Positions 43,609-47,213 of a DNA stretch of 64,000 nucleotides are shown here, in pieces; the first letter of the stretch is position 1, and every line of letters starts with the position of its first letter. Below the pieces are notes generated by a model. The model was given only the letters and a program-made list of their open reading frames with translations, made no database searches and was not told the DNA's origin. A program made the position numbers and the translations under genes. Where the stretch lies: positions 1,734,178 to 1,798,177 of the forward strand of contig NZ_LMMU01000001.1 of the NCBI RefSeq assembly GCF_001422375.1, given 5' to 3'. This DNA is from Methylobacterium sp. Leaf99. Lineage in GTDB: Bacteria > Pseudomonadota > Alphaproteobacteria > Rhizobiales > Beijerinckiaceae.

Positions 43609-44737
43609 TCAGACCGTCGCCTTGGCCGGGCCGCCCCAGTCGATCCAGTCGAAGGCGAGGTCGAGATCCGCCGGATCGACGCTGAAACGGCCGTCCCCGT
43701 CCGGGGACGCCGCGCCGATGACGTAGCCGTTGTGATGGTCGAGTTCCTGATCGATCCCGGATTGCAGGAATCCGAGATCGGCCGTGTCGTCCCGGGCCGC
43801 CATCACAAGGGTGCCGGGCCGCGAAAACATCGAGGCATGGAGGCCGGACCCGTATTCCCCGCAGATGGTCCCGGCCGCGTCGAACAGTTCGACCTGCTCG
43901 CGGAGGCCGAGCCGTTCCGGGGACACGATGGTGAAGCCCCGCTTGCGGGCGGTGTCCTCGAACAGGACGCGCTGGTGGAGGGACCGGGTGTTGTGGGTGA
44001 CGGCATTGACCGAGCGCGTCACGAAGATCCTTCGCCGGGCGGGGCGCCGGAACCGCCGGAACCGCCGGATCGCGGAGGGCGGCGCAGGCCTCGGCGAACA
44101 GGGGGGACACGCGTGTGCCGAACCGCAAGGTCGAGGGAACGATGAGCTCCCGGCACAGGACCACCTCGCGCGTGCGATCGTAGACGGCGCATTGGTGCGG
44201 ATCGATCCCCAGGATCGCGAGCCACCGGCGCGCGAAATCGGGCGTGTCGGACGGCATCAGGAACGTCAGCCGGCTCAGGCGGTAACCGGCCAGGCGGAGC
44301 AGATGGAGCTTGGGCAGGAAATCCACGAGCCAGTGGCCGTAGCCGAGATAACCCGCTCCGGTCAGGAGCACGACGGGATCGTGGACGCGCCGCACCGCCG
44401 CGTCCGGAAGCCACGCGTCGGTCGCCGCGTAATTCTTCGCGATGTAGTCCCGGCCGAGATTGAGGTCGTGGCCGACGTTGAAGCACCCGTCCGTCATCAC
44501 GATGCCCTCGCCGAGGACGGTGGCCTCGCGGACACGGTAGATGGCGGTTCCGAGGACGACGCTTTGGGAATGATAGAGGCGCAGCAGGTCGCTGGTGACG
44601 GCGCCGATCAGCAGGGACGGTGGCTTGATCCGTGAGCGATGGGCCCGGCTCACCTCGATCATCGATCCGCGCCCGGCCTGCACGCTGGCGCGCAGGTCGA
44701 TGATGGCCTCGTCCATCGGCCGGCCCACGACGCTCAT
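43609..44737 (-). pseudogene. GT61-family (DUF563) glycosyltransferase interrupted by a frameshift
   Basis: From the ATG at 44737 the first frame encodes a GT61-like N-terminal half with YLGYGHWLVDFLPKLHLLRL and AVYDRTREVVLCRELIVPS, then leaves the family after VPAVPAPRPAK. In another frame downstream the match resumes with RRRIFVTRSVNAVTHNTRSL, VSPERLGLREQVELFDAAGT and GEYGSGLHASMFSRPGTLVM to the stop at 43609. Removing one base from the G4 tract at 44041-44044 (C4 on the coding strand) would join them as PAPARRRIFVTRS. The ATG overlaps the PPSRP stop by four bases. Either a real single-base insertion, a phase-variable gene or an assembly error. Confidence 0.72.
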
Positions 44738-45564
44738 GTGGCGATGAATTTCAGCCGGTGCTCGCGGTGCAGGTCGAGGATGGCGGCGGCGGTTTCCTCG
44801 ATGGAACGGCGGGTCACGTCGATGGTCGGCCAGCGGTGCTTGGTGCACAGGCGCCGGCACGCCGCGATCTCGTCGGCCACGGCCGAGCGGTCGACGTAGA
44901 GGGACGAATCGTCGGCTTTCAGGCTGAGCAGGCGGTTCTGGCGGATCTGCACGATGCGCTCGGGGCTCGCCAGCAACCCGACGAGGAGGGGCTTTCGCGC
45001 GTTCTCCAGGGAGGCCGGCAGCGGCATGCCGGGCACCAGGGGGAAGTTCGCGGTCTTGAGGCCGCGGTTGGCGAGGTAGATTGCCGTGGGGGTCTTCGAG
45101 GTGCGGCTGACCCCCACCAGGATCACGTCGGCGTCGTCGACATCGACGGGCAGGTTGCCGTCGTCGTGCGCCAGGGTGAAGTTCATGGCGTCGATGCGCT
45201 TGAAGTACTCGGCGTTGAGCATGTGCTGGGCGCCGGGCCGGGCCGTCGAATCCGCCCCGAGGTAGGATTGCAGCAGGGCGTGCACGGGCTGGAGCACGGA
45301 GAGGCACGGCGAGCCGGTCTCGCGGCAGGCCGCCTCCAGGCGCTCGGTGAGGTCGTGGCCGACGAGGGTGTAGAGCACGAGGCCGGGCGCGGCCTCGATC
45401 TCGGAGATCACCCGCTCGAGCTGCGGCCCGGACCGCACCAGGGGGTAGACGTGCTCGATGGCCGAGACGCCCTCGTACTGGGCGGCGGCCGCGCGGCCGA
45501 CATTGATCAGGGTCTCGCCGGTGGAATCCGAGACGAGGTGGAGGTGGAAGTAGCTGCGGCTCAT
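44734..45564 (-). CDS. Pyruvate,phosphate dikinase/PEP synthase regulatory protein (PPSRP; RP001 family)
   Basis: A 276-residue DUF299 protein, an ADP-dependent kinase and Pi-dependent pyrophosphorylase that switches PPDK or PEP synthase off and on. The opening [21 protein letters not shown] and the P-loop [18 protein letters not shown] near 150-167 are diagnostic. This is the gene called RP001 in Rickettsia, which flanks hemE and the replication origin there and in Caulobacter. PEP supply matters in serine-cycle methylotrophs. The start is the ATG at 45564. Confidence 0.92.
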
Positions 45565-45646
45565 GGAGAAAGCGGTCTCCTCGGGATCAGGAGACAAGGA
45601 GCGGGCCGGCCCTGTCCACCGCGCCGGCCTCGGGGGAGTCGATGAG

Positions 45647-45655
45647 TGTGGATAA
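45647..45655 (-). promoter_or_regulatory. DnaA box
   Basis: TGTGGATAA on the plus strand is the exact reverse complement of the strong DnaA box TTATCCACA. It lies 82 bp from the PPSRP start in the origin candidate. Confidence 0.8.
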
Positions 45656-45843
45656 GCCGGCTCGCCATCGGGGTCCAGGCGGGACCCGCCCCGTGTTGTC
45701 GACTCTGGCGTCCACACGCCGTCCGACGCACGTCGCCGCGACGCGGTTTTGGGAGAATCAGGGACCCGGCAGCGCCCAGCGGCGCGGGGCGCCTCGCAAG
45801 GCACTGTCCGGCATCGTCTATCCGGGACATTGCTCCCAATCCG

Positions 45844-45858
45844 TTAAAGCCCTCTTAA
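45844..45858. promoter_or_regulatory. CtrA binding motif (TTAA-N7-TTAA)
   Basis: TTAAAGCCCTCTTAA contains two TTAA half-sites with exactly seven bases between them, the full CtrA consensus spacing. In Caulobacter, CtrA bound at the origin blocks replication in swarmer cells. The site lies between the DnaA box and the AT-rich stretch. Confidence 0.7.
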
Positions 45859-45914
45859 CGCCGTGGCGGCGGGGACGGCCTGTGGACGCTTTTCCGCTCC
45901 CGTCATCCAGCCCC

Positions 45915-45957
45915 CTAAAAGAAAAAACAGAGTCCTAGAATCTCTCTTTCCTTTTAG
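45915..45957. other. AT-rich segment, possible DNA unwinding element
   Basis: A stretch with poly-A/T runs bounded by CTAAAAG (45915-45921) and its inverted copy CTTTTAG (45951-45957), in otherwise about 70 percent GC surroundings. Its position about 125 bp before hemE and beside the CtrA site suits an origin unwinding element; it could also serve the hemE promoter. Confidence 0.5.
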
Positions 45958-46082
45958 AAGGGCCGTGTGGGGATCGATCCGGGGTGGGCGTCCATGGAAG
46001 GACGCAGGAACGGTTTTCGAGGGGAGACAGCCGCGCCATCGGTGCTACATACCGGTCACGGGGTTGAGGCGTCGGAGATCGG

Positions 46083-47213
46083 ATGAGCCAGGGTGATGGG
46101 GCGGACCGCGTGGTCCTGCGGGTGCTCTCGGGCGAGGCGCAGGCGCGTCCTCCCGCCTGGATGATGCGCCAGGCCGGCCGCTACCTTCCCGAGTATCGGG
46201 AGGTCCGCGCCAGGGCCGGTTCGTTCCTCGACCTCTGCTACAACCCGGATTTCGCCACGGAGGTCACCCTCCAGCCGATCCGCCGCTTCGGCTTCGAGGC
46301 CTCGATCCTGTTCTCCGACATCCTCGTGATCCCCGATGCCCTCGGCCAGGACGTGCGCTTCGTCGAAGGGGAGGGGCCGCGCCTCGACCCACTCGCCGGC
46401 CGGGCCGAGTTCGAGCGCCTGCGCCAGGCCGACGATCCGGCGATTTTTTCGCATCTGGCACCCGTCTTCGAGACCGTGCGCCGCCTGCGGGCGGAGCTGC
46501 CCCACGAGACCACCCTGCTCGGCTTCTGCGGCGCGCCCTGGACGGTGGCGAGCTACATGATCGGCGGGCGCGGCACCCCCGACCTCGCGCCGTCGCGGGC
46601 GCTGGCCCGGCACGACACCGCCCTGGTCGAAGCCCTCATCGACCGCCTCGTCACGGTGCAGACCGAGTATCTCGTGCGCCAGCTCGAGGCCGGGGCCGAC
46701 GCCGTGCAGATCTTCGAGTCCCATGCCGGGTCGCTGCCGGACGTGCGCGGCGCCTCGGAGCCGGAGGAAGCGCCCGTCAACGAGGTCGCCGAGAGCGCCC
46801 TGCCGGAGGGGACGCCCCGCGACGCCCTGACCCGCTGGTCGCTCCAGCCCATCGCCCGGATGATCGCCGGCGTCCGCGCCCGCGTGCCGGGCGCCAAGAT
46901 CATCGTGTTCGCGAGGGGCTCGGGCCTCGACGGCCACGCCCGCGTGGTGCCGGAGACGGCGGCCGATGCGGTGGGCGTCGACTGGTCGGTGGATCTGGCG
47001 GCGCTGAGGGGCCGTGTACCGGCCACCACCGTCACCCAGGGCAACGTCCACCCCGATACCCTCATCGAGGGCGGAGCGGCCCTGGACGCGGCCGTGGACG
47101 GCGTGCTGGCGGCGACGGACGGCCTGCCGCACATCTTCAACCTCGGCCACGGCATCACGCCGCAGACCCCCATCGCCCATGTCGAGCAGATGCTGAAGCG
47201 ACTGCGCGGCTGA
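46083..47213 (+). CDS. hemE: Uroporphyrinogen decarboxylase
   Basis: A 376-residue enzyme that decarboxylates uroporphyrinogen III to coproporphyrinogen III in haem (and bacteriochlorophyll) synthesis. The signature [20 protein letters not shown] is at 24-43, then [33 protein letters not shown] and [22 protein letters not shown]. It is about 25 residues longer than usual because of an acidic insertion after SHAGSLPD ([20 protein letters not shown]), and the usual SWAG reads SHAG. The stop overlaps the hemJ start (TGATG). Confidence 0.93.

Follow-up and report, generated by a model that had tools for sequence, protein, structure and literature searches.

A candidate replication origin between PPSRP and hemE in Methylobacterium, with a conserved CtrA-type site and a predicted KOPS pivot at the par cluster

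The gap between the divergent PPSRP and hemE genes of Methylobacterium is probably the chromosomal replication origin (oriC), as judged from the sites arrayed within it and the genes around it. It lies in the window, i.e. the whole 64,000-nucleotide stretch analyzed here, which corresponds to C1:1734178-1798177 of a 4,645,412-bp genome in 14 contigs (genome G000 below); the sequence and its list of open reading frames delimit the gap to 518 bp (Table 1). An earlier note on this DNA had proposed an oriC of the hemE/PPSRP type with a CtrA site at this place. The location stands, both neighbors matching their profiles and starting right at the edges of the gap, and the proposal gains from the conserved architecture and from the same gene order in other alphaproteobacteria; what did not hold is the GC-skew minimum that the note had expected here. 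The origins of Caulobacter crescentus (Cori) and Rickettsia prowazekii are likewise reported to sit between hemE and COG1806, and the flanking genes, a TTAA-N7-TTAA site, DnaA-type sites and an AT-rich stretch are common to them and the gap (PMC1914354).

Table 1. Features of the PPSRP/hemE gap and its borders (window positions; genus loci are the 28 aligned ones)
Feature	Position	Strand	Evidence and conservation
PPSRP (COG1806, RP001 orthologue)	44734..45564	-	left boundary; PF03618 298 bits, NF003742 337 bits
PPSRP/hemE intergenic gap, proposed oriC	45565..46082		rigid architecture kept in 28/28 aligned genus loci
Weak DnaA-like site, CTGTCCACC here; TTGTCCACC or TTATCCACC in several relatives	45612..45620	+	alignment, tally
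GANTC (CcrM-type) site 1, within GGAGTCGA	45636..45640		28/28 loci, 208-209 bp before CtrA-type site
DnaA box TTATCCACA	45647..45655	-	sole perfect copy in window
GANTC site 2, within TCGACTC	45701..45705		28/28 loci; missing in G024
Weak DnaA-like site GCGTCCACA; mostly GCGTCAACA in relatives	45708..45716	+	alignment
TGGGAGAATC element holding GANTC site 3 (45755-45759)	45750..45759	+	TGGGAGA invariant in 28 loci; GANTC 28/28
CtrA-type site TTAA-N7-TTAA, TTAAAGCCCTCTTAA	45844..45858		28/28 loci, also G024, G036
DnaA-type site GCGTCCACA, fixed 37 bp from CtrA-type site start	45881..45889	-	28/28 loci, also G024, G036
AT-rich element, candidate unwinding element	45915..45957		67% AT
GANTC sites 4 and 5, inside AT-rich element	45930-45934, 45938-45942		pair in 28/28
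Weak DnaA-like site TCCCCACAC, TCCCCA-type, adjoins AT-rich element	45965..45973	-	alignment
hemE	46083..47213	+	right boundary; TIGR01464 346 bits, over cut-off

The gene setting is general in the genus. A PPSRP match was recovered in all 59 genus genomes searched, and hemE/COG1806 flanks are present in 28 of the 30 best-scoring loci fetched from these genomes; the other two have no hemE motif in their flank and were dropped, leaving 28 readable loci for alignment, which are related to one another and are hence not independent. Next to PPSRP, the interval towards maf holds a glycosyltransferase-61-like gene split over two frames (window 43609-44740, minus strand), with PF04577 matching its second piece only; maf directly adjoins PPSRP in genomes G008 and G024.

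In the alignment, all 28 loci show a TGTGGA core, the reverse of a DnaA-type box, exactly 37 bp after the start of the CtrA-type site. A GAGTCGA motif precedes that site by 208 bp in 17 loci and by 209 bp in the remaining 11. Measured from the same point, five GANTC sites occupy offsets of -208/209, -143/144, -88/89, +85 to +87 and +93 to +95 in every locus. Between the start of PPSRP and a motif near the beginning of hemE, the length ranges from 557 to 904 bp, and these fixed offsets thus point to a rigid array whose surroundings drift. Invariant columns make up 106 of the 410 in the core. Mean identity to the window's own locus is 0.658 over this 410-bp core and 0.646 at PPSRP four-fold sites; hence, it is the motifs and their spacing that are conserved rather than the stretch as a whole. 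A BLAST search of 149 family genomes with the gap DNA matched 14, seven of them from the genus (the window's own genome included), and the matches from other genera were weak. The array also persists in two further genomes: G036 retains all its elements, with five GANTC sites, despite having mnmG 428 kb away, and G024 retains all but the second GANTC site (four of five).

The earlier note had described a single strong DnaA box on the reverse strand, with initiation perhaps relying on weak sites, and both points are sustained. The perfect box, TTATCCACA, occurs twice in the entire genome as against four times for a backward control pattern, and so a single copy in the gap is not beyond chance. 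Its position is occupied by TTATCCACA in six of the 28 loci, by TTATCCACC in six, CTATCCACA in two, TTATCCCCA in seven and TTTTCCCCA in seven. A TCCACA core is kept there in 8 of 28 loci, as opposed to 28 of 28 at the GCGTCCACA site beyond the CtrA-type site, which makes a weak site more constant than the strong one. Within the TCCCCA-type site, the GGGGA block (45969-45973) is kept in at least 90% of the loci. The gap combines one perfect box with weak, positionally conserved sites at an unexceptional density: with a lenient DnaA-box matrix, 10% of 350-bp genome windows score as high. As an origin finder, a scan with this type of matrix ranked low-GC islands first and did not pick the gap. 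The gap stands out from chance through motifs and spacings that are kept throughout the genus, and not through the density of its boxes. In G008, the sole TTATCCACA of the fetched 400 kb (C1:1165033) lies ~1 kb from a parS-like palindrome (C1:1166044) and 14 kb from the hemE gap.

The TTAA-N7-TTAA site and the AT-rich patch that the earlier note saw in the gap are both real features of it. This CtrA-type site is the only one of its form in the window and arose in none of 100 shuffles; it is intact in all 28 loci although its spacer comes in ten different versions. Genome-wide the pattern occurs at 28 places versus four for its backward control, indicating that it is generally enriched and not peculiar to the gap. 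The TCGACTC around the second GANTC site makes an inverted repeat with the GAGTCGA at 45636-45642. No IHF-type site was matched in the gap at up to one mismatch with an E. coli-type consensus; as that consensus is gammaproteobacterial, we treat such a site as accessory, while noting that an IHF site is a feature of the Caulobacter origin (PMC1914354). Trans-acting factors that could read the array are encoded in the genome. The CtrA model NF045991, whose cut-off was passed in one of 14 control genomes, finds two matches over cut-off (422 and 410 bits, at G000 C9:154254-154925 and C1:663999-664667), raising the possibility that there are two CtrA paralogues. There is a single RAMA domain, which we take to mark CcrM, and among the controls this domain was found only in Caulobacter. 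The dnaA gene lies at C9:214288, on a different contig from the gap.

CtrA sites of the TTAA-N7-TTAA form usually act in promoters, and the gap could accordingly be a mere divergent promoter region regulated by CtrA and CcrM, serving PPSRP and hemE, with an incidental likeness to origins. The 28 genomic places of the pattern and the unremarkable DnaA-box density agree with this, and the conservation of the CtrA-type and GANTC sites could reflect transcription of the two genes instead. However, an array of ~300 bp with nearly constant spacing and five constant GANTC sites exceeds what two promoters need, as does an element on the hemE side that is common to the origin-type gaps of other alphaproteobacteria. 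We therefore regard a purely promoter-based explanation as improbable.

That element emerged from an outgroup sample of 80 alphaproteobacterial parA loci, 22 of which have both PPSRP and hemE inside their 10-kb flank (the other 58, left out, are shortened by a contig end or the flank, or are rearranged). The order in these is a leftward PPSRP, the gap, and then rightward hemE, hemJ, rho, mnmE, mnmG, rsmG, parA and parB, with hemH inserted in some and later genes undetected in others; the gap is 6.7-9.4 kb from parA. The element, GA[GC]TC..AGAA, stands 64-82 bp before the hemE-side end in 13 of the 22 outgroup gaps and 16 of the 28 genus gaps. A full TTAA-N7-TTAA is present in four outgroup gaps (L175, L178, L196 and L246). 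The gaps of Mesorhizobium, Rhizobium and Shinella, about 420-430 bp long, share with the Methylobacterium gap the gene pair, the DnaA-type boxes and the hemE-side GANTC/AT-rich element; unlike it, they have no full TTAA-N7-TTAA and are still 7-9 kb from parA. In the locus of one Rhizobiales MAG (L177 5319-6921), eleven parS cores, TTTCACGTGAAA, are packed into 1.6 kb upstream of mnmG. Relative to Cori, the gap is sparsely furnished, with one full CtrA-type site versus five and one strong DnaA box versus five (PMC1914354), though several GANTC motifs are reported for the Caulobacter origin too (PMC3973325). In Brucella, according to one study, CtrA was not observed to bind the origin (PMC2877005).

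A GC-skew minimum at the gap, which the earlier note had anticipated, was not recovered: skew is almost absent, shallow and broad. In the fetched part of C1, the raw cumulative curve is lowest at ~1.72-1.73 Mb and nearly as low at ~1.84-1.86 Mb. The authors of the M. extorquens genomes likewise report a lack of GC skew (PMC2680597), and skew has been described as insufficient for placing the origin in several alphaproteobacteria (PMC1914354). GC skew at four-fold sites, compared between the gap and the par cluster in five genomes, was not decisive as a mapping tool either: it favors the par cluster in four and the gap in G018, with z above 2 in G000 only. Arm balance to dif was set aside as a locator since it splits, favoring the par cluster in three of the five genomes and the gap in two. 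Of 15 genomes scanned for a dif-like site, CGCATAAGATATATTATGGAAY, 13 have a single copy (in G000 at C10:180883-180904). In the single-contig, ~6.6-Mb genome G026, it lies at C1:371699, ~0.8 Mb from the gap at C1:1181699, which would imply either very unequal arms or a misassembly.

A clearer polarity is carried by oligomers. When all 8-mers with 40 or more occurrences on the outer arms were ranked by strand bias, GGGCAGGG (74 to 21) and GGGGAGGG (46 to 13) came out on top; in the held-out region, the top 6- and 7-mers were not polar in this way. Both 8-mers fit the published form of KOPS (PMC6199493), and we used the form GGGSAGGG, picked after its bias in G000 had been seen. The best predicted switch in G000 falls at C1:1,696,779-1,698,478, outside the window and ~82 kb to the left of the gap, within the cluster secB/tim44-mltA-smr-rho-mnmE-mnmG-rsmG-parA-parB-holA-lptE-leuS. 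The ParA of this genome has its best named match in M. dankookense (87%), on which the genus assignment rests. Three parS-like sites in this par cluster (C1:1692046, 1694027 and 1699038) are about 81-88 kb from the gap, as opposed to ~8 kb between the parS cluster and the origin in Caulobacter (PMC5815017). Thus, parS is not within ~10 kb of the proposed origin as in the Caulobacter-type linkage, and strand composition does not switch at the gap, the KOPS pivot being 82 kb away.

The distance between the two regions varies widely in the genus, mnmG and PPSRP sharing a contig in 18 of 18 genomes, 17-428 kb apart and in both relative orders. KOPS counts between them were compared in five genomes chosen for few contigs and distant clusters (56-428 kb): G000, G008, G024, G036 and G018, of which G036 and G018 were read as samples. 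The polarity favors the par cluster in all five (110 to 31 overall, or 138 to 51 with the full GGGNAGGG; individually, p is below 0.05 except in G008, at 0.13), which ties the pivot to the par cluster. Three partial loci with few KOPS (G019, G010 and G050) were kept outside this tally; the order seen in G019, with the gap 17 kb from mnmG, can be read as intermediate. In Pseudomonas aeruginosa and Burkholderia cenocepacia, GGGNAGGG is similarly skewed along both arms towards dif, in a layout that was measured from the origin or judged to agree with it (PMC6199493, PMC4948915); the pivot here differs in falling at the par cluster and is separated from the proposed origin by tens to hundreds of kb.

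These results bring forward the main rival to the gap, namely that the working origin lies in or beside the rho-mnmEG-parAB-leuS cluster, the gap being a former origin kept as a promoter region regulated by DnaA, CtrA and CcrM or as a DnaA-binding reserve. A KOPS pivot that falls at the par cluster in each of the five genomes is as expected if initiation takes place there; the four-fold skew in four of them and the arm balance in three lean the same way, and sampled GC skew in G036 has its minimum at the par cluster. Against this, the 20 kb surrounding the G036 pivot contain no DnaA-like 9-mer over threshold, and the other four genomes have scattered ones only. The five par-cluster gaps, when aligned, vary in length and display no comparable shared array in the portions of the alignment inspected. 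The composite motifs of the PPSRP/hemE gap were found in that gap only in the fetched part of C1, with no second array near the par cluster. Near C1:1703000, the gap between the RR and LDT genes was weighed as an origin on account of its higher AT content and rejected, as these genes are ~38 kb from the par cluster in G008. Moreover, KOPS are the most polar 8-mers against a general strand asymmetry close to nil; the pivot need not be a by-product of replication or mark its start, and skew and KOPS bias were judged to be separate phenomena in P. aeruginosa (PMC6199493). The persistence of the rigid array with the par cluster 428 kb off, the want of a comparable array in the inspected portions of the par-cluster alignment, and this near-absence of strand asymmetry are our reasons for preferring an oriC at the gap; initiation in the par cluster appears unlikely, albeit less so than the other alternatives.

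Published Methylobacterium records suggest yet another position. One of two genome papers on the genus puts a putative origin upstream of dnaA in M. oryzae (PMC4161386), and the other numbers M. extorquens AM1 and DM4 from dnaA (PMC2680597); four of nine genomes considered here also start at this gene. The M. extorquens numbering is, however, a stated convention adopted by its authors for want of GC skew (PMC2680597). In addition, neither of the two genomic copies of TTATCCACA is near dnaA, which is on contig C9, and more than 1.2 Mb separate this gene from the KOPS pivot in G008, G018 and G036. An origin upstream of dnaA consequently seems the least credible of the alternatives, and we consider it very improbable.

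Taking the PPSRP/hemE gap as oriC, DnaA would load on the box at the TTATCCACA position and on the weaker TCCACA and TCCCCA sites, and would thereby melt the AT-rich element next to hemE. The TTAA-N7-TTAA site, whose closest constant DnaA site is 37 bp away, would be bound by phosphorylated CtrA, which would restrain initiation until its removal. The GANTC sites, if methylated by a CcrM-type enzyme, would change their methylation state at the passage of the fork. CcrM is reported to be dispensable for the control of initiation in Caulobacter (PMC3973325), so these sites may instead time transcription or do nothing in initiation. The par cluster with its parS would serve as the segregation center, with the FtsK guide words arranged around parS and not around the origin; FtsK pumping DNA from the septum towards a pole-anchored parS would favor such a layout of KOPS. 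We read the gene orders as showing that the gap and parA, 7-9 kb apart in other alphaproteobacteria, have been separated in Methylobacterium while the KOPS pivot stayed with parS. In its full form the idea is more tentative than the origin assignment, at somewhat short of an even chance: origin and centromere would have parted, KOPS polarity would follow segregation, and the origin gated by CtrA would be as much as 428 kb distant from the first DNA to be segregated.

The analysis thus defines, at the level of sequence, a candidate oriC for the genus in which a CtrA-type site is conserved. In titles and abstract openings of mainly open-access literature, we found no Methylobacterium origin mapped to hemE and no KOPS pivot at parS. 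The range of 17-428 kb is comparable in order to the ~500-kb zone in which Caulobacter is reported to tolerate an additional parS cluster (PMC5815017). Genomes of the genus with the proposed origin and parS 17 to 428 kb apart make KOPS polarity, the order of segregation and CtrA control directly testable against origin and centromere. If the separation is as we propose, Methylobacterium would constitute a natural experiment in which KOPS polarity follows segregation and not replication.
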